From assembly GCA_016791475.1 (NCBI GenBank), contig JAEUWI010000004.1:124001-188000 (forward strand): DNA of 64,000 nucleotides, written 5' to 3'. The stretch comes from Candidatus Hydrogenedentota bacterium. GTDB lineage: Bacteria; Hydrogenedentota; Hydrogenedentia; Hydrogenedentales; JAEUWI01. A program made the translations under genes and the position numbers. Below the pieces are notes generated by a model. It had not been told where the DNA came from and ran no database searches. It saw only the letters and a list, made by a program, of their open reading frames with translations. This document shows positions 44,349-58,155 of the stretch, in pieces (the first letter of the stretch is position 1; each line of letters starts with the position of its first letter).

Positions 44349-44984
44349 CTATTGCTCCAGCAGCACCGCGATGTTCTCGTGCCCTTCGTGCCGGGCGGCA
44401 TCGGCCGCAGTCTCGCCGTTCTTGTTCTTGATGGTCTTGTCGGCGCCGCGCTCCATGAGCACGCGGACAACCGCGTCGCTGGCGTTGCGGGCCGCGCGGT
44501 GGAGCGCGGTGTCGCCGGTGTGGTTGACGGCATTCAGGTCGCCGCCCGCGTCGATAAGCTGGGCGACCTCCTCCGCGTCACCCCGGGCGGCCGCATAGTG
44601 GAGCGGCGTCCAGCCGGCCTGCGTGATGGCATTGACGCTTGCGCCGTGGGCCAGCAGAAAGGCCACATCCTGCTCGTGGCAGCGCGCGGCGGCAATATGG
44701 AGGGGCGTGAGTCCCCAGTCGTTGACGGCGTTGATATCGGCGCCCCGACTCAGGAGATATTCCATGATATCGGCGCTGCCCCAGGCCGCGGCGGAGTGGA
44801 GCGGCGTCATGCCGTGGTCGCCCCGCTGATTGACGGAGACGCCTTCATCCAGCAGCGCCGCGATGTCGTGGGGTTTGCCCTCGCTGGCCGCATCGTGGAT
44901 CGTCTCATAGCGGACTTCGGGGGTGACACATCCGCCGAAGGCGAGGAGGAGCCCGGCCAGACCGAAATTGCTGAGGTGCTTCAT
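44349..44984 (-). CDS. Ankyrin-repeat lipoprotein
   Basis: 211 aa. Start has AAAGGGA 5 nt upstream. Signal peptide MKHLSNFGLAGLLLAFGGC with the lipid cysteine at residue 19. The rest is five or so ankyrin repeats (HGMTPLHSAAAWGSADIMEYLLSRGADINAVN, WGLTPLHIAAARCHEQDVAFLLAHGASVNA, AGWTPLHYAAARGDAEEVAQLIDAGGDLNAVN, TGDTALHRAARN). A protein-binding scaffold at the envelope. Immediately upstream of the NapC-type cytochrome on the same strand's far side. Confidence 0.9.
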   Translation of the reverse strand: MKHLSNFGLAGLLLAFGGCVTPEVRYETIHDAASEGKPHDIAALLDEGVSVNQRGDHGMTPLHSAAAWGSADIMEYLLSRGADINAVNDWGLTPLHIAAARCHEQDVAFLLAHGASVNAITQAGWTPLHYAAARGDAEEVAQLIDAGGDLNAVNHTGDTALHRAARNASDAVVRVLMERGADKTIKNKNGETAADAARHEGHENIAVLLEQ

Positions 44985-45082: not shown

Positions 45083-46519
45083 CTACTGAATTCCGAGGGT
45101 CCCCAGAATCTCTGGATTCTCTTCCTGCCAGGACAGCACATTGTGGCAGATTGTGCAGTCCTGCGTGATCATGCGCCCGCCATCTTTGCTTGCGTGGCCG
45201 TCGTCATGGCAGCGGAAGCAGCCGTTGAACTGGGTATGCCCTTTTTGATCGGGATAGGTGCCCCAGGTGATACCCATCTGGGGGTAAATGTTCCGGGTGT
45301 AAATAGCCTGGATTTCGGCGATGGCCGCGTCGATCTGCGCTCCCTTGTCCGCCACGGCGTCCGTGTGGTTCGCCCCATAGAATTCCTTCACGTTGCCGGC
45401 GATAAATGCGACACCGTCTTCCGCCGTCGCCGCGCCTTCCAGCGCCGCCATGCCGGCCGTCTTGATGCCGGGCAGCGCAACGTCGATACGGCCCGCCTTC
45501 ATGGCCGCGTTCAGCGCGGGACCCGGCATCTCAAACTGATGGGTGGCGCGGTTGTGGCAGTCGGTACAGTCCATTTCGCGCATTTTCCTGGGGTCGACGG
45601 TCGCGGGGTCAAACTCGGCATCGGCGAAATACTCCGTCACCGTGCCGTCCTCCTCCGCCACCTTTACATACGGGATAGTCTCGCGCTTGTCGTCGGAAGC
45701 ATAATAAGAAACCTCCCGGCCGGGGCTCAGATGCCAGCTATGGATCCCCTTCTGCTGGGAACCGCGCCCGCCGATGTGCATCATCAGCACGGAACTGAGG
45801 GGCGTATTCGCGTCGTCCGCGGTGTAGTCGGTGGTGACCCGGAGGACGTCGCCCAGGTCCTCTTCAGGGTTGTGGCATTCGCCGCAGGTAAGCTCCGCGT
45901 CGGACAGATTGTGCACCGGCGTGGGAATTGGCCGGTCATAGGTGCCCGTGAGAACACCGTAAACCTGATTCAGACCGTTCACCTTCGCGTGCACAAGCGA
46001 AGGCAGTCCCGGGCCGATGTGACAGTCCACGCACTTCACGTTCGCGTGGGGCGAATTCTGGTGCGCCGTGAATTCGGGGGACATGACGCTGTGACAGGCC
46101 AGGCCGCAGAATTCCACCGACTCCATGTACACCATGCCCTCATAGCTCACGGCCGAAATAATGCCGAAGTTGGCCAGCGTGAGCACCACCACGATGGCAA
46201 AAAGCTTGCGAATGCGCGGGCTGTTAAAATCAAGATCGATGTGGGCCGGTTCGGAAGAATCCATTCTCCTGCGGCGGCGCCGGTCCACCCACCCGCCAAG
46301 GGGGATCAGCAGAAGGCCGCAGACAAATACCCCCGGCAGGATCATATAGGACAGAATGCCGATATACGGCGAAAGGGGCACGCCCACGAGCCCCATGATC
46401 AGGAAGCCGACAATGGCCGCGCCACTGACCGTGGTAAGGCTGCTGCCGAAGAGGGTGATCCAGTTGCGCCAGATCAAGTGGGTCAGCGCCCCGATCCAAC
46501 CTTTTTCCGCTTTGGCCAT
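45083..46519 (-). CDS. NapC/NirT-type membrane multiheme cytochrome c
   Basis: 478 aa from ATG 46519 (GGAG 6 nt upstream). Three N-terminal hydrophobic segments (to about residue 130) then a periplasmic domain with FCGLACHSVMSPEFTAHQNSPHANVKCVDCHIGPG; the first heme site is CX3CH, a form I recall in this family. Five CXXCH follow: CVDCH, CGECH, CTDCH, CFRCH, CTICH. Quinol dehydrogenases of this type oxidise the quinol pool and pass electrons to periplasmic cytochromes. It lies downstream of the decaheme gene after a very stable hairpin. Confidence 0.9.
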   Translation of the reverse strand: MAKAEKGWIGALTHLIWRNWITLFGSSLTTVSGAAIVGFLIMGLVGVPLSPYIGILSYMILPGVFVCGLLLIPLGGWVDRRRRRRMDSSEPAHIDLDFNSPRIRKLFAIVVVLTLANFGIISAVSYEGMVYMESVEFCGLACHSVMSPEFTAHQNSPHANVKCVDCHIGPGLPSLVHAKVNGLNQVYGVLTGTYDRPIPTPVHNLSDAELTCGECHNPEEDLGDVLRVTTDYTADDANTPLSSVLMMHIGGRGSQQKGIHSWHLSPGREVSYYASDDKRETIPYVKVAEEDGTVTEYFADAEFDPATVDPRKMREMDCTDCHNRATHQFEMPGPALNAAMKAGRIDVALPGIKTAGMAALEGAATAEDGVAFIAGNVKEFYGANHTDAVADKGAQIDAAIAEIQAIYTRNIYPQMGITWGTYPDQKGHTQFNGCFRCHDDGHASKDGGRMITQDCTICHNVLSWQEENPEILGTLGIQ

Positions 46520-46555
46520 GTTATTCTCCGCTCCGTACTGATGCTTACTTGTTCA

Positions 46556-46593
46556 ACCGGCGGGGAAGGTTGGGTACAACCTTCCCCGCCGGT
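46556..46593 (-). other. Very stable intercistronic hairpin
   Basis: ACCGGCGGGGAAGGTTG (46556-46572), 4-nt loop, and its complement (46577-46593): a 17-bp perfect stem between the decaheme and NapC-type genes. No T run follows on the minus strand, so it is more likely an mRNA stabiliser, processing site or partial terminator. Confidence 0.75.
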
Positions 46594-46652
46594 GCTGTCT
46601 CATGTCAACTTTCGGGTCATTCCGTTGGGCTGCCCTTCGGGCGGCCTGACGG

Positions 46653-48710
46653 TCACGGCCCCATATTGTGGACGTCGATTACCGCGAATTCCGCGCTGCT
46701 GTCGTGGCAGGTGGAGCAGGATTCCACGCGGGTATTCGGCTCCGTCGCCAGGATGGCGTGCACTTCGGTAATCAGGCTGTCATGGCAGGACGTACAGGCC
46801 GCACGCTCCGGCAACTTCTCGGAAACCACACCCTCGCCATCGCTGATGACCGTGGGCAGGGCCTCTTCGGCCAGGGGCAGTTCATAAGAACCTTCGACGT
46901 GGCAGATCTCGCAATTGCGCAGGTCGCCGGGGAACCCGATGTGGGTAAAGTCGAAGGGTGTGCTGCCGAAGCCAAACACCGTGTAGTCCGTTTCAAGATC
47001 GGCGCCACGGTGAATCTGGTGGACCATATCCTTGAAATTGATGGTTTCAGGCGGAAGCATTTCCGCGGGACGGCGGCTGATGTCCGTACCGTTGGGATTG
47101 TGGCACATCACGCAGTATTCCACACCCACGCGCAGACTGCCATGCAGACGCAGGTCGCTGTGGCACACGTTACACTTTTCATTGTCCACGATCTGCCGGC
47201 GTTCGACAGGTTCGCTGCCGTCCGTCGTGAAGATCATGCGACCGTTGCTCGAAGTACCCTGCGTGACCGTGGTTCCGTTGTTGTCGAAATCAAGCCGACC
47301 GTCCATGGCCACCGCGAAGGTGTCGGTGGAGGCCAGGGGCACTTCCCGTACAAAGGTATAGTTGAAGGTGCCGTCGCCATTCGAGACGGCATTGGCGGCG
47401 GTGATGGTCTCGCGCACCGAGGTCTGGTAATCACTGACGGGGTAGGCCAGCGTGGCCGCGACCGTACGAATCGCCGTCAGGTCGGTGTAGGGTTCGCCGG
47501 CGCCGTTGGCGGCGGTGAAGTTGATGGTCACGGCTACGCCGGTCTCGGTCTCGGCGGTCGTGGTCTCGTTAACCGTGAACGCAAGTCCCGGCGCGAGGGG
47601 GCTGTCGGTCGCCAGACGGTGCGCTTCCATGATGGGCGCGGGTCCGGGGGCCGTGGGCGTGTGGCACAGGGCGCAGAGGCTGTTGTCCACCTGCTGCCCG
47701 GCGATGTGGTTGGTGAAGCCTTCGGGCGTGCCGAGGGGATCGCCGAACCAGGTGCGGTCGTGGCAGGAGGCGCAACCCTCAATCGTGGGGTTGTTCATAT
47801 GGACTTCGCCCTGGGGCGCGTTTTCGTGGCAGACGGCGCAATTCTGGACCGGCTGCGGAAACGTGACGTGCGAGAAGTCTGTACCTTGCACGATGTAAGG
47901 CTCACCCGCCTGAACACTGGGAAGGTCCGAGCCACGGTGGATCTTGTGAACCATGTCGGCGAAGTCAATTGACACACCTTCGTCATCCAGCGAACCGGTG
48001 CTGTGACACATGATGCAATACTGGACTTCGCGGCGCGTGCCGTGGGCCGAAAGGCGGGTATGGCACTGATTGCAGGATTCCGTCGTGACGAGCTCGCGCG
48101 TGGCGACTTCGGTGCCACCATCGGGGCGAAAGGCCAGAACGGCATTCGCGGGATAGGTCACCTCGTCGATGGGGAACAGGCGGCGGAACTGGCCGGCCAC
48201 TTGATGAGAAGCGGTGGTCAGGTAATCCTCAGGTAGCGCCGTCTCGAATTTGTAGGTCAGCGTACCGTCCACGATCTGCGTCACACCCGCGAGGCGTGCG
48301 CTATCTGTGGTGTACTGAAGAACCTCTTCTCCTGTCGACGACACGCGGGTGCGGGTGGTGTAGCTGATGTAGCCAGCTACACCGCCTTCGCCCGGTTCCG
48401 GATCAAGGTAGGCCAATGCGAAGCGCGCGTCGGTCAGTTCCCGCAGGGGAATCAACTCGCCCGCATCGTCCGTGATGGTAAAAGAGACCAGAGGCCGAAG
48501 GTCTTCGGGGATCACGATCTTGGTGATTTCCACATTCAATCCGGGCGAGGTCGACACCGGCAGAACAGGAATCGGATCGGGATCCGGATCGGGATCTGGA
48601 TCGGGATCTGGGGGACAGCCCGCGATCAAGACACCAGAAAACAGAAGTGCGAGAAGAGCGTACCATTTGGTGCTCGTCCCGCGTGAACTGGGTAACCCTT
48701 TTACTAACAT
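46653..48710 (-). CDS. OmcA/MtrC-family decaheme lipoprotein cytochrome
   Basis: 685 aa with GGAGGA 8 nt before ATG 48710. Lipobox LIAGC then a PDPDPDPDP linker. Exactly ten CXXCH sites in two pentaheme clusters: CNQCH, CIMCH, CAVCH, CASCH, CALCH, then CNVCH, CVMCH, CEICH, CTSCH, CSTCH, with beta-barrel-like domains before each cluster. The repeated DMVHKIHRG/DMVHQIHRG motif is typical of this family. Such proteins sit on the cell surface and reduce metals or donate electrons to extracellular acceptors. Confidence 0.95.
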   Translation of the reverse strand: MLVKGLPSSRGTSTKWYALLALLFSGVLIAGCPPDPDPDPDPDPDPIPVLPVSTSPGLNVEITKIVIPEDLRPLVSFTITDDAGELIPLRELTDARFALAYLDPEPGEGGVAGYISYTTRTRVSSTGEEVLQYTTDSARLAGVTQIVDGTLTYKFETALPEDYLTTASHQVAGQFRRLFPIDEVTYPANAVLAFRPDGGTEVATRELVTTESCNQCHTRLSAHGTRREVQYCIMCHSTGSLDDEGVSIDFADMVHKIHRGSDLPSVQAGEPYIVQGTDFSHVTFPQPVQNCAVCHENAPQGEVHMNNPTIEGCASCHDRTWFGDPLGTPEGFTNHIAGQQVDNSLCALCHTPTAPGPAPIMEAHRLATDSPLAPGLAFTVNETTTAETETGVAVTINFTAANGAGEPYTDLTAIRTVAATLAYPVSDYQTSVRETITAANAVSNGDGTFNYTFVREVPLASTDTFAVAMDGRLDFDNNGTTVTQGTSSNGRMIFTTDGSEPVERRQIVDNEKCNVCHSDLRLHGSLRVGVEYCVMCHNPNGTDISRRPAEMLPPETINFKDMVHQIHRGADLETDYTVFGFGSTPFDFTHIGFPGDLRNCEICHVEGSYELPLAEEALPTVISDGEGVVSEKLPERAACTSCHDSLITEVHAILATEPNTRVESCSTCHDSSAEFAVIDVHNMGP
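48571..48611. repeat. Short tandem repeat coding PD dipeptides
   Basis: Four imperfect copies of ATCGGGATCTGG-like 12-nt units inside the decaheme gene, encoding the PDPDPD linker after the lipobox. Slippage would alter linker length. Confidence 0.7.
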
Positions 48711-48891
48711 GTGCTGTTTCCTCCGCTTCTTTTTGTCGCCCGACAGTTCCCGTTACAGGACTTTCACGCCATCCTTACTCCGCTGGTCAGCGCGCCACAA
48801 CCGGGAGAATGTCCTCTCCTTTGAATCGTTCCCAAGGGAGCATTCTGTTGTAGTGTAAGCGATTTCTGTGCCAATGAACAGAACATTTCTA

Positions 48892-48906
48892 TTGAACAAT
48901 GTTCAA
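48892..48906. promoter_or_regulatory. Palindromic operator candidate
   Basis: TTGAACAATGTTCAA, arms TTGAAC/GTTCAA with 3-nt spacer, about 185 bp upstream of the decaheme start. The half-sites GAACA and TGTTC recur nearby at 48867 and 48920. Confidence 0.5.
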
Positions 48907-49088
48907 ATGCCATAAAGCTGTTCATTGCCCGTGATTGCCCAATGGGCTCGTGGGCCCTTATTTTTCAATACGATAAAAGATGTAAGCAGAGCGCTTGTTT
49001 AGCACGCCATACAGCACTATTCACCTGAACACTTCTGTCCCCGCCAGATGTGCGCAGAGTACGATCGCCTCCCATTCGGGGGTATCGG

Positions 49089-49117
49089 TTGACACAACGA
49101 ATGGGCCGTGATAGTGT
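49089..49117 (+). promoter_or_regulatory. Promoter candidate for the right arm
   Basis: TTGACA (49089-49094), 17-nt spacer, TAGTGT (49112-49117). The -35 is perfect, the -10 weak. Confidence 0.4.
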
Positions 49118-49262
49118 GGTATTGTTCGGGGAGTAACAGAACGAACGACTTGGCAAGGTTGTTGCTTCAAGTAGCCAGGATGCCACCGCGCATCTCAGGC
49201 AACCTGGGACGTAACCCGGTAGAAGAGCAGTTCTGGCGTGTATTTTTTTCGGGAGGAAGCAA

Positions 49263-49307
49263 GTGTTGAGCACTCAACATGGGAACCGATGGGGCGGTCT
49301 GGCGTGA
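49263..49307 (+). CDS. Possible 14-codon leader peptide
   Basis: GTG 49263 follows GGGAGG by 6 nt, a strong site, and reads 14 codons to TGA 49305-49307. The stop overlaps an in-frame GTG (49304) of the downstream cytochrome (GTGA), as in coupled leaders. The DNA between overlaps the longer in-frame N-terminus of the cytochrome, so one of the two readings is false. Confidence 0.35.
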   Translation: MLSTQHGNRWGGLA

Positions 49308-50332
49308 ACTCATCTCCACACACGAAGAACCAGCGCGGCACCCTCCTCTTCCACGGGCGCGGCCTGAAGTATCTCAGTCTGGCGGCGCTTCCCCTCCTCG
49401 GCATGAGCGTGGATGGATGCTGGCAGCCGGGACTCGGGCCCGGCGAAGTAGGCACGGCCACCTGCCTCGCGTGTCACGACGGGCGCAGTGCGAGCGACCA
49501 TCGCGAGTTTCGCGACAGCCCCCACAACACGATATCCTGCGAATCCTGCCACGGCCCCGGCCTCACCCACGTGCGCGAGGGTGGGCGCTTCGGCCTGTTT
49601 ATACACAACCCCGGCGATTTGCCGTTTGAGAAGCGCCACGAGGCGTGTGTTGAATGCCACGATCAGGCGGACAGCCCGGGCGGCGACACTGTGGGCGGTT
49701 ACCTGTCCACCGCACACTTTGCCGAGCATGGCGCGACCTGCACCGATTGCCACAATGTACATAATCGCGGGGGCATGGCAATCAGCGCCGAATCCCCCGC
49801 CCGCTTCGGCAATGAAAACTTCGCAACGCTTTGCGGCCGGTGCCACGAAGACACCGTGGCGCAATTTGCGTTGAGCGGCCATGCCGAGCTCGATGTCGCC
49901 ACGTGCGCCAGTTGCCACGACATGCACGGCGGCACGATGCTTACGGCGACGCCGGAAGACAACCGCCTCTGCCAGCAGTGTCACCAGAGCTTCGCGCTGG
50001 GCTTTGAAACGGATGAAGATGTGGCCTTCCATACGGGTCACCCGGTGGACCCCGCGGGGAGCGGCGCAAGTCGCTGCACCAGTTGCCACCTTCCGCCCCT
50101 GGAAGCGGGCGGCGCCTCCGGGCATGACCATTCGCTGCTGACTATTCCCCCGCTGGCGAGCAACGAGGCAATGGAGCAGGGTGTGCAACCCGCCCCGCCG
50201 AGTTCCTGCGCGGGCGTGACGGGATGTCACGACGCGAATGTTCCGGGCTCCGGTCCCGCTTATGATGAGAACGACCCCGACAGCAACGAAGACTTGCAGT
50301 CGCTGTACGAATTGATTGGTGCGCTGCCTTGA
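49289..50332 (+). CDS. DmsE/MtrA-like multiheme cytochrome c
   Basis: About 347 aa from ATG 49289; GTG 49304 is an alternative. A hydrophobic export segment (LSLAALPLLGMSVDGC) precedes the heme domain. Eight CXXCH sites (CLACH, CESCH, CVECH, CTDCH, CGRCH, CASCH, CQQCH, CTSCH) plus one CX5CH (CAGVTGCH) near the C-terminus. Spacing and motifs such as CHNVHNRGG and CHDMHGGTM fit the DmsE/MtrA type that fills an outer-membrane porin and passes electrons outward. Followed by the barrel gene. Confidence 0.88.
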   Translation: MGRSGVNSSPHTKNQRGTLLFHGRGLKYLSLAALPLLGMSVDGCWQPGLGPGEVGTATCLACHDGRSASDHREFRDSPHNTISCESCHGPGLTHVREGGRFGLFIHNPGDLPFEKRHEACVECHDQADSPGGDTVGGYLSTAHFAEHGATCTDCHNVHNRGGMAISAESPARFGNENFATLCGRCHEDTVAQFALSGHAELDVATCASCHDMHGGTMLTATPEDNRLCQQCHQSFALGFETDEDVAFHTGHPVDPAGSGASRCTSCHLPPLEAGGASGHDHSLLTIPPLASNEAMEQGVQPAPPSSCAGVTGCHDANVPGSGPAYDENDPDSNEDLQSLYELIGALP

Positions 50333-50387
50333 TGCTCATGATGGAGGACGAGGCAACAATGACCGCCACGAAATGGAAGGGCACCGG

Positions 50388-52046
50388 GTGTTGACAGGCT
50401 GGAGGTATTCGATAAACCGATCGCGCGCGAGGCTGCTGTTCGCCCTTGCGCTGGTGCCCCTGCTGGCGGGGGGAAGGGCATTCGCCGCCGAAGAGGCCGC
50501 CACGGTGGAGGCCCAGACGGTCGTCGAAGCGCCCGCTGCGGAAGCCGCGCCGGACGCCTCGGCCGAGGCCCCCCCCGTGGAAGCGGACGCCGAAGAGAAT
50601 GCCCCCGCGGAGGCGGGTGAACCCGTTGCCGGGGAAAACGCCGAAGGCGAGGAGCCCGAAGAGGCTCCCCGCTGGTATCGCGGAACCTTTGAAGCGGAAG
50701 TGGACAGTGTCATCACGGACGGCGGTTCCGATCTCGACTTCAGCCAGTATCTTCGCCTGGAAGCCGATCCCCCGAAAAAGCCGAAACTCCACCTGCGCGG
50801 CGCCCTCTGGCTCCACCAGGATCTGTTGTCGGACGAGGGCAAATCCAGCACACTGCGCGATATCAACGATGCGTCGAGCTCGGATGTTCAGGCGCGCCTA
50901 CTCTATCTCTATGCGGACTTCGACGACGCACTCGGGGACCAGTCGGTCCTCCGCATTGGTCGCCAGCGCATTCAGGATGGAGCCACCTACAACCGCATCG
51001 ACGGTCTCTACCTGAAGAAGCGCATCGACAACGTCGAGATGTACGCCTTTCTCGGCGCGCGGGCGTCGGTCTATCGCGATACCACCGACGATCTGGTGCT
51101 CGGCGGCGGACTGGCCTATCTTCCCTCCGCCCAGACGCGCATCGCCCTGGACAGCTACTACGCCGAGGAAAGCCGCTATGGCCTTTCCACGCGCAAAGAC
51201 TTTAGGCCCTTCTCAGGCTATTACCGCTACATTGCCTCGGAGATCAACGACAGCAAGGTAACCCTGAGCCTCTGGCACAGTTTCGGGCCCAATACCCGCC
51301 TTTTCGGGCGCATCGGCATGCTCGGCAGCGATCTGGACGAGCTCAGCCTCAGCCTCAATGGCTACATCCCCCGCCTCAACCTGCTCTACGATGTCAACTA
51401 CCGCCAGCTTTTCAACACCACGGGCGACACGACGGCCGACCTCTCCCCCTACTATCAGATTCTGGGGCAGTACCGGGAACACCAAACCTTCTATCTCGCC
51501 CTTCACCGCCCCATTACCAAGAAAATCACCCTCTCCCTCGAAGGCGAAGTGCGCAATTCCGAGAACGACGATTTCTACTCCGGAAACCGGGACTACCAGC
51601 GGGTGGGCACGGTCCTGGACGTGGACGATCTGTATAAGGGCTTTGGCGTAACGACTTCGCTGGAGTACTGGAACGTCTCCGAAGGCGAAGGCTCCTGGAC
51701 CATCACCGGCGAGGTCAACCGCACCTGGAAAAATCTCGAATGGCGCGCGGGTGTGGATTTCGTCCGTTACAAGGACCGCGTCATCGAATATGACCGACGC
51801 GCCGCCCTCGTGGACGCCGCCGTGGTTGCCATTGTACCCGGCATCTACCCCGGCTTTTCCTGGTTCACCCAGCGCAATTCCACACGTATCCTGGACACGC
51901 GGGAGAATGTGTACAGTATATTTACCGAATTCGACTGGGAATTCCGCGAAGATCAGACCTTCTACGCGAAGTTTTCCTTTGAAGAAGATGATGGGCCCGA
52001 CTCCCCCTATTGGCACACCCGTGCGGGCTATCGGATAAGATTTTGA
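50388..52046 (+). CDS. Outer-membrane beta-barrel protein of the cytochrome locus
   Basis: 552 aa from GTG 50388, chosen for GGAAGG 7 nt upstream; the signal peptide (RSRARLLFALALVPLLAGGRAFA) follows directly. A 60-residue acidic, Ala/Pro-rich linker (AAEAAPDASAEAPPVEADAE) leads to a barrel of amphipathic beta strands ending in Phe, the outer-membrane sorting mark. VLRIGRQRIQDGATYNRIDGLYL resembles alginate-export-type porins. It lacks the CxxC start of MtrB and is shorter. Its place between multiheme genes suggests it forms the conduit around the MtrA-like protein. Confidence 0.85.
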   Translation: MLTGWRYSINRSRARLLFALALVPLLAGGRAFAAEEAATVEAQTVVEAPAAEAAPDASAEAPPVEADAEENAPAEAGEPVAGENAEGEEPEEAPRWYRGTFEAEVDSVITDGGSDLDFSQYLRLEADPPKKPKLHLRGALWLHQDLLSDEGKSSTLRDINDASSSDVQARLLYLYADFDDALGDQSVLRIGRQRIQDGATYNRIDGLYLKKRIDNVEMYAFLGARASVYRDTTDDLVLGGGLAYLPSAQTRIALDSYYAEESRYGLSTRKDFRPFSGYYRYIASEINDSKVTLSLWHSFGPNTRLFGRIGMLGSDLDELSLSLNGYIPRLNLLYDVNYRQLFNTTGDTTADLSPYYQILGQYREHQTFYLALHRPITKKITLSLEGEVRNSENDDFYSGNRDYQRVGTVLDVDDLYKGFGVTTSLEYWNVSEGEGSWTITGEVNRTWKNLEWRAGVDFVRYKDRVIEYDRRAALVDAAVVAIVPGIYPGFSWFTQRNSTRILDTRENVYSIFTEFDWEFREDQTFYAKFSFEEDDGPDSPYWHTRAGYRIRF

Positions 52047-52063
52047 GCATGAAAGGCATTCCC

Positions 52064-53137
52064 ATGACACTCAGGCCCGGACTTACCTGGACTGCCCTGG
52101 CGGCGGTGGCGCTCATCAGCGTGGCCTTCGCCTCCAACGGGGGGCTCTTCCGCCGCTCGAAGGCGGCCCCGGATCGCGGCCTTAAATCGGCCCACGCCAA
52201 ACACGCCGAGCAGGAACTCGACTGCACCACCTGCCACGCCTGGGAAGAAAACGGCCACGTGGTCCCCGGCCACGAACTGTGCAGTATCTGCCACGCGATC
52301 GACGAAGAAGCGACCGACAAAGCCGCCTGCAACTTCTGCCACACCCGCGAAGACCAGTCCGTCGATCCCCTCGTCAAGCGAATGAGCGTCGAAACCATCT
52401 TCGGCCATCAGCCCCACATCGACGCCGAGATCGACTGCATCAAGTGCCACGAAACCCCCGGCGAAATTCCCGATCTGCCCAAAGGGCCCCTCATGCCCTG
52501 GTGCATGGAGTGCCACGTGGAATCCGAAATCCCCATGCTCGAATCCGGCGAGCCCAACGTCAACTTCGCCAAGAACGAGTGCACCGTCTGCCACAGCGAA
52601 ATCACCGCCCAGACCCGGCCCCAGTTCCGCGGCGGCACCCGAATCGCCCACGACTCCCCCGAAATCTGGATGAAGGCCCACGGACAAGAAGCCCAGTTCG
52701 ATCCCGCCTACTGCGCCATGTGCCACGACACCGTCGCCTCCTGCGACGACTGCCACCGCCGCGAGAAGCCACAGAACCACACCGTGGCCTGGCGCCGCAA
52801 GGCCCACGGACTTCGCGCCGTCATCGATCAACAGAACTGCGCCGCCTGTCACGAAGAAGACTACTGCGCCAAATGCCACGAGAAAACCGAGCCCGCCTCC
52901 CACCGCGCAGGATTCGGCGGCTCCCTCAACCAGCACTGCGTTTCCTGCCACTACCCCCCCCAGGAAACCTCCTGCACGGTGTGCCACGAAGAAATTGAGC
53001 ACCGCAAAGCCAAGATTTCGCCCCACACCTTCGGCATCTTCCCCGTCAACTGCGCCGTGTGCCACCCCGGCGGCGAGCCCCACCGGGCCCCCCACCTCAC
53101 CAACAACTCCGTGAGCTGCAAAACCTGCCACGAATAA
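52064..53137 (+). CDS. 14-heme periplasmic cytochrome c
   Basis: 357 aa from ATG 52064 (AAAGG 7 nt upstream; ATG 52049 would add five residues). One N-terminal anchor or signal (TALAAVALISVAFAS), then 14 CXXCH sites: CTTCH, CSICH, CNFCH, CIKCH, CMECH, CTVCH, CAMCH, CDDCH, CAACH, CAKCH, CVSCH, CTVCH, CAVCH, CKTCH, about one per 24 residues. Several pairs sit close, as in cytochrome c3/c7 chains. A periplasmic electron wire between the membrane quinol oxidase and the conduit is likely. Confidence 0.9.
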   Translation: MTLRPGLTWTALAAVALISVAFASNGGLFRRSKAAPDRGLKSAHAKHAEQELDCTTCHAWEENGHVVPGHELCSICHAIDEEATDKAACNFCHTREDQSVDPLVKRMSVETIFGHQPHIDAEIDCIKCHETPGEIPDLPKGPLMPWCMECHVESEIPMLESGEPNVNFAKNECTVCHSEITAQTRPQFRGGTRIAHDSPEIWMKAHGQEAQFDPAYCAMCHDTVASCDDCHRREKPQNHTVAWRRKAHGLRAVIDQQNCAACHEEDYCAKCHEKTEPASHRAGFGGSLNQHCVSCHYPPQETSCTVCHEEIEHRKAKISPHTFGIFPVNCAVCHPGGEPHRAPHLTNNSVSCKTCHE

Positions 53138-53258
53138 AAAATTGAAACCCGGTCCCCCGCCCCGCCATCGCGGAGCGGAGACCCGGAACAAGTTTGGTCG
53201 AATCGCGCCCGAGTCCGGCATAGGGCAGGGGCAACGGCGCGAAATAAAGGAGAACCCC

Positions 53259-53861
53259 ATGAAAGTCATCCAACAATGCCTGGCCGCGGCCCTGATGCTC
53301 GTCCTGGCCAGCGCCGCCGTCCAGGCGCAAGACAAGGCCGCCGAATACGTCGGCCCCGATCAGTGCAAAGTCTGCCACAACAAAAAGCCCGAAGGCGCCC
53401 AGTGGACCGTGTGGAAAACCATGAAGCACGCCAAAGCCTTCGAATCCCTCAAGAGCGAAGCCGCCCTCAAGATCGCCAAAGACAAAGGCCTCGCCAAGCC
53501 CCCCTCAGAATCCCCCGAATGCCTCAAGTGCCACGTCACCGGCTATGACGCCGCCAAAGCCGCCGCACCCGCCCGCATCAAGCCTGAAGACGGACTCTCC
53601 TGCGAAAACTGCCACGGCCCCGGCTCCCTCCACATCGCCGACGCCAAAGACGTCGTCGCCAAGAAAAAGACCGCCGAAGAAGTCGACTGGAAAGCCCACC
53701 TCGCCGCCATCGAAGAAGCCCGATGCCGCGAATGCCACAACGAAGAAAGCCCCACCTGGAACCCCGAACAGTTCACCAAAGCCGACGGAACCAAGACCGG
53801 TTTCGACTACGAACAAGCCAAGAAACTCATCGAACACGCCAATCCCTTGAAAGCGAAGTAG
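53259..53861 (+). CDS. Tetraheme c554-like cytochrome
   Basis: 200 aa from ATG 53259 with AAAGGAG 7 nt upstream. Signal peptide ends in AQA. Four CXXCH sites (CKVCH, CLKCH, CENCH, CRECH) with the NCHGPGSLH motif of cytochrome c554/c-prime. Lysine-rich, unlike its neighbours. Periplasmic electron carrier; last gene of the operon, followed by a terminator. Confidence 0.92.
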   Translation: MKVIQQCLAAALMLVLASAAVQAQDKAAEYVGPDQCKVCHNKKPEGAQWTVWKTMKHAKAFESLKSEAALKIAKDKGLAKPPSESPECLKCHVTGYDAAKAAAPARIKPEDGLSCENCHGPGSLHIADAKDVVAKKKTAEEVDWKAHLAAIEEARCRECHNEESPTWNPEQFTKADGTKTGFDYEQAKKLIEHANPLKAK

Positions 53862-55202: not shown

Positions 55203-57755
55203 TCATTCCACCGTAAACTCCCACACTTCCGGCTCCACGGGCACGCCGGTTTCGCTCTGGAAGTTGATGGCGTTTGCGCTGTTGATGCCGACGCGGTAGG
55301 TTTTTCCTACCTCGAGTCTCACGGGCAGCGTGCAGGTTTGTTTGTCTTCGCTCCAGCCTACTTTGCCCGTGGTCTCGGGAAATTCTCCTCCGGCTTTGGT
55401 CCAGGAGCAGCCGCCACCCATGGGTTTATCGAAGGTGACGAGAAGTTTGTCTTTGGACTCCCCCACCACCTTTGAAACTACTTTGGGTGGCGTGAGCCCC
55501 GCGAGGGCTTCGGGTGGCGCGCCTTTGGTGGCGAAGTAGAGGACGCGGTCGCGGGCGGGGATACCGTTTTCGCCGCAGAAGTTCTTGAAGCTCTTGGAAT
55601 TGATGCCCACGCGGTAGACGCGGCCTTCCGCCAACTTTACCGGCAACTCGCAGGTGCGCTTGTCGAGCCAGTGCGGCTTTCCGGTGGTCTCGGGATAGAG
55701 CTCGCCGCCGCCGGTCCAGGAGAAGCCGCCTTTCATGTCCTGATCGAAGGTGACGGTGATTGCGGAGAGGCCGGGATCGATCTCGGATGCGCCAATGGCT
55801 GGATTCGACGAAAGGATTTCCGGCGCGGTCTGATTTGACGCGGCCGACGTTGCGCTGGCCTGCGAGCCGGGCAATCTGAGGATAATCGATTTCCCAATAC
55901 GTTCCTCGTACACAACCACCGATTTTTCTTCGACGTTGATCGACTCCAATCGAAAGGCTTCGAAGGCTTCACCCTCAACGTACCATTTCTTGCTTGAGTT
56001 GGTCTTCAGGCGCGCACGCCATTCACCATTTGCCTCTTTCAAGTCCAGCAACTCAATCCCCACGCCCTTCCCGGTTAGTTCATTCTCTCCGTTTCCGTGG
56101 GAAGGCACGGTACTCTCCGCGCTGGCCTGCGCGCCTGGCATCTCCCAGGGCTTCAGGTCGTCCTCGCTGAGTCTGGGCTCTTTGCCCTGAGCGTTCCACC
56201 AGGCGCCCCAGGCCGCCTTGTCCTGATCGAAGGTCTGGCCGGTGAGGCGCAGGAGGGAACCGCGCGCCCACATGCGCGTGTTTTGATTGCCGTGGTCCAC
56301 GAGAGGAATCAGCACAGGTATGGCGGAGTCATCGCCCTGGCGGCCCAGCGCGGCGACGGCCATCCATTTCGCGCGGCAGTCGTAGTCCTGATCGTCGCGG
56401 TGATAGGCGGCCACTTTCTTCAGGCCGGGCAGGAGTCGGGTATCGCGGAGGACACCCGCTTCGGCCAAGGATTCGCATTGCTGGCGGCCATACTCGCCTT
56501 CGAGCACGGCGGCGATGTAGGTGATTTTCTTTTCACGTTCATCCGGAGTCAAGGCGTCGAGCGCGCCCACGTCGAGCCAGAGGTTGGAGCGCCCGAAGCT
56601 TTCGCAGGTGTGCTTGATGAAAGCCTGCACTTCCGGATGGGCCTTTTCATAAAGTGCAAGCTCCGAGGCGCGATCGGTCGGGGTGGTCGCGGTCGACTCG
56701 GCGTCTGAGATAGCCTGCATGGGAATCAGGCCCAGGGCGATGACGGTAAGCGCCAAAGCCGAACGAAGCCCCATGCGCCGCCGCCGCGCGGCATCGCCTG
56801 CGGAGCGGATCCGCTGGAGCAGGTTCCCCGACAGTTCCATCAGGCCAAGGAACCCCGCACCGGCCGGTATCATGCCGTCTGCGGCTTCCGCGCCTTTGAG
56901 GATGGTGCCCGCGTATTCTTTGCCGTCTGTCCTGGTGCTTCGCAGCACCATATCGTCGCATGCCATTTCCCGCTCCCTTCGCAGTTGCAGGTGCGCCACC
57001 CACACGAGGGGGTGGAACCAGTAGCAACAGGTTAAGCACGACGCCATCCACCCCACGAGGAGGTCGCGGCGTTTTATGTGCGCCAGTTCATGGGTGAGTA
57101 TATTTCCGAGGGCATCGCGGTCGAAGGTGTCGAGCCAGTCGCCCGGAATGAGAACCACGGGCCGCCACACACCCAGAACCGCCGGAACGCTTAACGTGCC
57201 CGTGATGCGGAACGCAGGTGTATGCCCCAGCCCGACGAGGACGACCCGCTCCCCCGCCATTTGCCGCAGCCATGCGGGCGCTTCGAGGCTGCCCAGGTGG
57301 GCCAGCCGCTTGAAGCGAATGAATTGGACGATCAGCAGCGCGAACATCGCAAGGGCTACCACTCCCCAGAGGCCGAGGAGCAGTGCCTTCAACGGTACGA
57401 CTGGGCGCAACGGCGGATTCGCTGTCCGGGCGTGCATTGCGGTGTCGGATTCGATGAGGGTCGCCGGCGTTTCGACTTCGGTGTTCGGCGTCACCGCGTC
57501 GTGCGGAGAAGTGATGTAGCCGCCGGCCTGCGCCACGTGTTGTGCCATCGTGCCAACGGACCACGGAACCGCGAGAAAAGGCGGGATGAGGAGTTTGAGG
57601 AACACCAGGAACCAGAGGGCATAGCGAAAGCTCGCGGAGGTCTTTGTGAAGACGGACGTGAGTGCCCATATGATCGCCGCGAAGAGGGCGACCTGCCATG
57701 TGCTGTGCACCATCCAGGACCACCACGCTTCCAGAACGCTATTTGACGTTTCCAT
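55203..57755 (-). CDS. BlaR1/M56-type membrane metalloprotease with extra C-terminal domains
   Basis: 850 aa. Four transmembrane helices; zinc motif HELAH (about residue 220) with third ligand in REREMACDD (about 263), the M56 protease domain that cleaves the BlaI-type repressor. Instead of a penicillin-binding sensor the outer part holds HEAT-like helical repeats (DYDCRAKWMAVAALGRQGDDSAI, NTRMWARGSLLRL) and two Ig-like domains (LSAITVTFDQDMKGGFSW, LLVTFDKPMGGGCSW) each with YRVGIN. The sensed signal must differ from beta-lactams. Overlaps blaI. Confidence 0.9.
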   Translation of the reverse strand: METSNSVLEAWWSWMVHSTWQVALFAAIIWALTSVFTKTSASFRYALWFLVFLKLLIPPFLAVPWSVGTMAQHVAQAGGYITSPHDAVTPNTEVETPATLIESDTAMHARTANPPLRPVVPLKALLLGLWGVVALAMFALLIVQFIRFKRLAHLGSLEAPAWLRQMAGERVVLVGLGHTPAFRITGTLSVPAVLGVWRPVVLIPGDWLDTFDRDALGNILTHELAHIKRRDLLVGWMASCLTCCYWFHPLVWVAHLQLRREREMACDDMVLRSTRTDGKEYAGTILKGAEAADGMIPAGAGFLGLMELSGNLLQRIRSAGDAARRRRMGLRSALALTVIALGLIPMQAISDAESTATTPTDRASELALYEKAHPEVQAFIKHTCESFGRSNLWLDVGALDALTPDEREKKITYIAAVLEGEYGRQQCESLAEAGVLRDTRLLPGLKKVAAYHRDDQDYDCRAKWMAVAALGRQGDDSAIPVLIPLVDHGNQNTRMWARGSLLRLTGQTFDQDKAAWGAWWNAQGKEPRLSEDDLKPWEMPGAQASAESTVPSHGNGENELTGKGVGIELLDLKEANGEWRARLKTNSSKKWYVEGEAFEAFRLESINVEEKSVVVYEERIGKSIILRLPGSQASATSAASNQTAPEILSSNPAIGASEIDPGLSAITVTFDQDMKGGFSWTGGGELYPETTGKPHWLDKRTCELPVKLAEGRVYRVGINSKSFKNFCGENGIPARDRVLYFATKGAPPEALAGLTPPKVVSKVVGESKDKLLVTFDKPMGGGCSWTKAGGEFPETTGKVGWSEDKQTCTLPVRLEVGKTYRVGINSANAINFQSETGVPVEPEVWEFTVE

Positions 57756-58155
57756 TGCCCGCGTGCTCCTTTTGCCGGGCGCGTTCGATGCGCGCCAGTT
57801 CCGCCCGCAAGACTCTCAGCTCGTCTTCGCCGACCGACTCGGCGAAGCACGCCACAAAGGGCTGCATGGCCCCGTCAAACACGCGATTCACGAAGGAACC
57901 CACCGTTGCGCGCGTCATTTCCTCGCGCGTGTACTCCGCACGATAAAGGTAGGAGTTACCGATCTGGTCATAGGCCAGCACCCCTTTCTTTACCAGGCGC
58001 GCCAGCATCGTCTTGAGGGTCTTGTAGGCCCAGGCCTGCTCCTGCGGCACCGCCTGGAATATATCCCGCGCCGCCATGGGCCCGCGGTCCCATAGGGGTT
58101 TCATGACCTCCCACTCCAGTTCCGAGAGTTTGGGCACGTTTTTCTTGCGGGGCAT
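57739..58155 (-). CDS. BlaI/MecI-family repressor
   Basis: 138 aa. Winged helix: LSELEWEVMKPLWDRGPMAARDIFQAVPQEQAWAYKTLKTMLARLVKKGVLAYDQIGNSYLYRAEY, then a dimerisation and cleavage-region tail. Represses its own operon until the membrane protease cuts it. The protease gene begins 17 nt before this stop. Operator at 58195-58210. Confidence 0.93.
   Translation of the reverse strand: MPRKKNVPKLSELEWEVMKPLWDRGPMAARDIFQAVPQEQAWAYKTLKTMLARLVKKGVLAYDQIGNSYLYRAEYTREEMTRATVGSFVNRVFDGAMQPFVACFAESVGEDELRVLRAELARIERARQKEHAGNGNVK

Follow-up and report, generated by a model that had tools for sequence, protein, structure and literature searches.

A candidate porin-cytochrome conduit with a barrel not recognisable as MtrB in Candidatus Hydrogenedentota

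A stretch of 64,000 nucleotides from a Candidatus Hydrogenedentota genome (GCA_016791475.1, contig JAEUWI010000004.1, positions 124,001 to 188,000; hereafter the window) carries six adjoining genes, here called A to F, at window positions 45083-53861. We consider it probable that together they specify a complete porin-cytochrome conduit used in extracellular respiration. All parts of the quinol-to-surface route proposed in a preliminary description of this DNA are present and co-occur across the phylum: a quinol oxidase (A), a surface decaheme lipoprotein of the OmcA/MtrC family (B), an MtrA-related cytochrome (C), an outer-membrane β-barrel (D), a 14-heme cytochrome (E) and a c554-like cytochrome (F). 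In our best reading, the barrel of the conduit was replaced or diverged beyond recognition.

Gene content and heme motifs

The open reading frames of the window confirm six genes in two divergent arms over 8.8 kb, and our recount returned the 41 CXXCH motifs described before (5, 10, 8, 0, 14 and 4 in A to F) together with the additional CX3CH in A and CX5CH in C. No CXXCH occurs in the 15,676 amino acids of the longest non-overlapping open reading frames elsewhere in the window. Conservation also shows the heme signal to be real, as all CXXCH sites of E and, in C, the six shared CXXCH sites and the CX5CH are invariant across homologues. Gene starts given here are approximate and for several genes the true start probably lies 3' of the start of the open reading frame; lipoproteins and helices were predicted from motifs and hydropathy.

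Gene B (46653..48710, minus strand) exceeds the cut-off of the OmcA/MtrC model TIGR03507 with 398.6 bits (cut-off 209.3) and matches PF22113 with 180 bits. The family score agrees with its ten CXXCH motifs and the lipobox LIAGC, and the initial assignment as an OmcA/MtrC-type surface decaheme lipoprotein was thus corroborated. Besides the lipobox cysteine, B has no non-heme cysteine and therefore no CX8C pair. In this respect it differs from extracellular cytochromes in which paired cysteines are reported to control the reduction of flavins (PMC9973256).

Gene C (49238..50332, plus strand; probable start ATG 49289) encodes an MtrA/DmsE-related cytochrome with eight CXXCH motifs and one CX5CH. 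It is predicted to be a lipoprotein, and the codon of the putatively lipidated Cys61 (49418..49420, plus strand) is invariant in 25 of 25 homologues. The CX5CH motif (50207..50230, plus strand; consensus N-S/T-C-x-G-x-x-G-C-H) is likewise invariant in 25 homologues, as are the six CXXCH motifs shared by the family and seven further histidines, so that seven bis-His hemes are predicted for the family. A two-heme insertion turns this 7-heme form into a 9-heme form, to which C of the window belongs; the insertion lies approximately at 49716-49860, and one homologue (L034) is a short form inside the long-form clade. We regard the CX5CH motif as unusual without claiming it to be unprecedented; the string was not found in our literature search, outside of which most subscription literature lay. 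Searched against PDB sequences, the C profile found MtrA as best match (6r2q_A, E-value 6.6e-26, 94 bits), the next entry reaching 44 bits. The structure model of C is of low confidence (predicted local distance difference test score, pLDDT, 69). Its first Foldseek match is MtrA (E-value 0.089, probability 0.91) with a Z score of 6.0 that is tied with OcwA and weak taken alone.

Gene E (52010..53137, plus strand; probable start 52049 or 52064) combines 14 CXXCH motifs with 14 further histidines, all of them invariant in 26 homologues. A lipobox is found in 23 of the 26 but not in the genus to which the window belongs. The N-terminal half of E matches c7-type and ACIII-ActA domains, and the C-terminal eight-heme half has no relative in the PDB.

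Gene A (45083..46519, minus strand) is a predicted inner-membrane quinol oxidase. The Cytochrom_NNT model (PF03264) of the NapC/NirT N-terminal heme domain matched with 37 bits (cut-off 24.1), whereas the narrower NapC/NirT model TIGR02161 reached 17.9 bits against a cut-off of 310.6. Three predicted N-terminal transmembrane helices are followed by a CX3CH (46091..46108, minus strand), which constitutes the sixth heme site, and by five CXXCH motifs; all six are invariant in 11 homologues. ImcH has been described as three transmembrane helices followed by NapC-like hemes, with 6-10 hemes in all (PMC6295460), a pattern that A shares on layout only. The earlier naming of A as a NapC/NirT quinol oxidase was hence right as to the domain but not as to the layout, which is ImcH-like and not plain NapC/NirT. 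The last gene, F (53142..53861, plus strand; probable start 53259), encodes a c554-like tetraheme periplasmic cytochrome that matches Cytochrome_C554 (PF13435) with 67.8 bits (cut-off 20.8). A second cytochrome c554-type protein (open frame of 498 amino acids) is encoded elsewhere in the genome (L002, G000:C28:63701-63907).

The region between both arms (48711..49288) is the expected site of both promoters; a sigma-70 scan returned fewer sites than shuffled sequences and thus gave no useful signal, and no promoter was identified. An ankyrin-repeat lipoprotein-like gene (44349-44984) directly adjoins A. Just past the locus, at 55203-58155, a BlaI/MecI-like regulator precedes a large membrane protein whose N-terminus resembles a zinc peptidase, a pair that we call BlaR1/BlaI-type from its appearance only.

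The barrel and its distribution in the phylum

Gene D (50316..52046, plus strand; probable start near ATG 50373) encodes an outer-membrane β-barrel of no described family that ends with a C-terminal aromatic residue (YRIRF). An Ala/Pro/Glu-rich linker (50487..50654, plus strand) connects signal peptide and barrel, and most homologues have similar linkers. D gave no match beyond noise, and none over any family cut-off, in Pfam, NCBIfam, PHROGs and PDB sequences. For MtrB/PioB (PF11854), the window barrel showed no match at E≤10, and two of 19 barrels showed weak local matches (17.6 and 16.0 bits, cut-off 23). These cover about 90 residues, align to separate regions of the profile and occur alongside comparably weak matches to unrelated barrels. 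An identification of D as MtrB was therefore rejected, and the claim that the barrel is not MtrB/PioB by hidden Markov model stands. The lack of an N-terminal CxxC, which had been used as an argument for the same claim, is no membership test, since this mark is not known outside gammaproteobacterial MtrB.

The AlphaFold2 model of D, built with 19 homologues, reached a mean pLDDT of 82.4 and a predicted template modelling score of 0.74. It has 22 strands (counted as DSSP elements) and no plug domain, and a plugged pore, which had been named as a possible objection to a conduit, is thus not predicted. AlgE was the first Foldseek match of the model by E-value and shares generic β-barrel features with it. 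However, the template modelling score is only ~0.4, AlgE has 18 strands compared to 22 in D, and Alginate_exp (PF13372) had no match at E≤10 in any of the 19 family members. Upon structural re-alignment, the TonB-dependent receptor barrel PirA (Z 19.1, 353 aligned residues, root-mean-square deviation 4.4) and FimD (Z 18.6, 344 aligned residues, root-mean-square deviation 4.5) aligned better than AlgE, with ties below. We therefore dropped the former label of D as alginate-export-like. The TonB-receptor barrels among the better alignments have 22 strands. That the 50 structure matches listed do not include MtrB has no bearing on a relationship, and E-values from comparisons between barrels are unreliable in general.

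In ideal geometry, a barrel of 22 strands has a backbone diameter of ~40 Å and a clear width of ~30 Å, compared to ~47 and ~37 Å for 26 strands. MtrA measures ~80 x 30 x 35 Å, and the first four of the 26 strands of MtrB make no contact with MtrA in MtrAB (PMC7198977). Given this width, size and contact pattern, threading of a cytochrome through D appears possible but tight.

Relatives from named genomes belong to Candidatus Hydrogenedentota, with the window genome in the same order. The genomes compared are fragmented metagenome-assembled genomes. The barrel was detected in 26 of 60 relatives and, by profile search, in 29 of the 68 genomes examined from the phylum; E (30/68), C (28/68) and A (30/68) occur in nearly the same genomes. 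OmcA/MtrC proteins over cut-off were present in 26 of the 60 genomes, 23 of which also have the barrel (Fisher p ~2e-10, inflated by shared ancestry). MtrB/PioB was found in 0 of 60 genomes, and MtrC-type cytochromes therefore occur here without recognisable MtrB. Among the 27 barrel loci, 26 have room upstream, and 25 of these carry C there; downstream, E follows the barrel in all 26 with room. E stands beside D in every genome, contig breaks excepted. Homologous barrels lying mostly without multiheme neighbours had been set beforehand as a result that would speak against a conduit; such neighbours are essentially always present. Where OmcA/MtrC and the quinol oxidase lie away from the barrel, they are often together elsewhere, and no other convincing barrel was found beside them by a crude filter (C-terminal aromatic, more than 300 amino acids).

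Distances of C, D and E correlate moderately (0.34-0.57), as common ancestry would produce, and are therefore uninformative; nor does the barrel tree divide along the 7- and 9-heme forms of C. Viral contigs searched with the barrel and the 14-heme protein, and plasmids searched with OmcA/MtrC and the 14-heme protein, yielded no relatives. A scan of genome contigs with a single short peptide pattern, which is not an exhaustive negative, returned Hydrogenedentota-type loci only. One contig carrying the barrel (L057) was deposited as Nitrospiraceae bacterium OTbin.67 but appears to be a contig of a genome of our set (G054) and groups with the window's order; its label looks wrong, as through an error of naming or binning.

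Electron path and alternative explanations

In the conduit that we propose, A would oxidize quinol in the inner membrane, and F and/or E, a predicted lipoprotein in most homologues, would carry electrons over the periplasm. C, with its 7 or 9 bis-His hemes and its lipid anchor, might then take them across the outer membrane inside the 22-strand barrel D and pass them to the MtrC-type B, which could reduce minerals, humics or other cells. Judging from the sequences, we favour C and not E as the cytochrome sheathed by the barrel, with E as a relay, because the C profile finds MtrA best; the low-confidence model of C agrees weakly. This scheme builds on the gene content, the conservation of hemes and ligands, the lipoboxes, the co-occurrence of the genes and the predicted plug-free fold of the barrel.

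The formation of a complex, the sheathed partner, the direction of flow and the substrate are inferred. Several observations weigh against the proposed conduit. C does not reach the cut-off of the DmsE/MtrA family (TIGR03508, 70.7 bits compared to 192.2) and also resembles GSU2203 decahemes below the respective cut-offs, and the estimated inner width of D is tight for a cytochrome of the size of MtrA. The cassette is not uniform either: in one genome (G007) a repetitive cytochrome of at least 21 hemes takes the place of C, another (G009) carries C, D and E without A or OmcA/MtrC, and a third (G026) carries A and B without C, D and E. Finally, no member of the Hydrogenedentota with known reduction of metals or electrodes was found in the literature searched. 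The replacement cytochrome of G007 (L113:2-1288) has at least 21 CXXCH motifs and is cut by the contig start.

An unlikely but still noteworthy alternative is that E spans the barrel as the wire and that C is a docking cytochrome anchored in the outer membrane or a periplasmic one. No other gene accompanies D as constantly as E, which is also very heme-dense, and C can evidently be replaced, as in G007. However, MtrA is best matched by C, while E reaches 6r2q_A only with an E-value of 0.00037; in addition, the N-terminal half of E resembles periplasmic domains and its lipobox is not conserved in the genus of the window. Alternatively, D could descend from MtrB/PioB with very strong divergence, in which case the locus would be an ordinary though diverged MtrCAB. 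The presence of MtrC and MtrA relatives and the two weak PF11854 matches would agree with this, but as these matches are short, scattered and below 23 bits, as the window barrel and all 60 genomes lack PF11854 and as 22 strands are predicted instead of 26, we consider such a descent quite unlikely. It is improbable that D serves for export, placing lipoprotein cytochromes or filaments at the cell surface without conducting electrons itself: the secretion pores FimD and AlgE are among its structural neighbours and B, C and most E proteins have lipoboxes, but the cassette contains no secretion-accessory genes and the partners of D are constant, one MtrA-like protein and one with 14 hemes. That the genes serve periplasmic respiration of nitrogen oxides and that a nutrient porin lies near them, as the similarity of A to NrfH/NapC and of F to c554 might suggest, is very improbable given that no NrfA or HAO catalytic subunit is among the six genes and that a surface MtrC lipoprotein and a barrel are conserved together across the phylum.

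Comparison with known porin-cytochrome systems

A conduit formed by the six gene products would place a complete extracellular-respiration module, conserved phylum-wide, in uncultured bacteria of a little-studied phylum. For Hydrogenedentota, the literature found reports only Cyc2 homologues (PMC9769843). A published survey of mtrCAB required mtrB and found three phyla, Hydrogenedentota not being named (PMC8805035); marker searches that need MtrB miss such organisms. The locus also shows that a barrel not recognisable as MtrB can accompany an MtrC-type surface reductase together with an MtrA relative, a combination that bears on the evolution of sheath and wire.

That D defines a new porin-cytochrome class, as suggested at first, is plausible without being proven, since new clusters of porins and multiheme proteins have been proposed before and the barrels of Verrucomicrobia and Geobacter are known here by description only; the designation is thus provisional. 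We find it possible, if somewhat doubtful, that the system had a separate origin, with a Hydrogenedentota-only barrel of 22 strands that shares no ancestry with MtrB, OmbB or the porins of Verrucomicrobia, sheathes a CX5CH-containing MtrA-related lipoprotein cytochrome and is joined by a new 14-heme cytochrome. If this were true, MtrC-type terminal reductases would be interchangeable between unrelated barrels.

PCC3 and PCC4 (PMC5566968) as well as the porin-multiheme clusters of Verrucomicrobia (PMC5615132) were proposed from gene layout. Like D, the porins of PCC3 and PCC4 are not MtrB and adjoin multiheme genes. However, the porins of PCC3 have up to 42 strands, their partners carry a median of 34 and 21 hemes, and a b-type protein of the inner membrane belongs to the cluster; PCC4 has no surface cytochrome (PMC5566968). 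The Verrucomicrobia clusters combine a porin of at least 20 predicted strands with a periplasmic 8-heme and sometimes an extracellular multiheme cytochrome; in the accessible text, no 14-heme partner or ImcH-like gene is described (PMC5615132), a comparison by description only. OmbB-OmaB-OmcB and Ext of Geobacter are established porin-cytochrome types that are not homologous (PMC6148476). They resemble the present locus in joining a barrel to several multiheme cytochromes, some of them small lipoproteins (extABCD), but the surface cytochrome here is of the MtrC family, and the barrels are likened by description only.

The likeness is broadest with MtrCAB of Shewanella, in which MtrA lies in the 26-strand MtrB and MtrC on the surface: an MtrC-family lipoprotein, an MtrA-related cytochrome, a barrel and a NapC-type quinol oxidase are found here as well. 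On the other hand, the barrel is not MtrB by hidden Markov model and has 22 predicted strands, C is a predicted lipoprotein that carries 7 or 9 hemes, one of them at the CX5CH, a 14-heme protein is added, and the donor is ImcH-like and not CymA-like. We therefore do not file the locus as MtrCAB, given the failed MtrB test, although it would work like MtrCAB.

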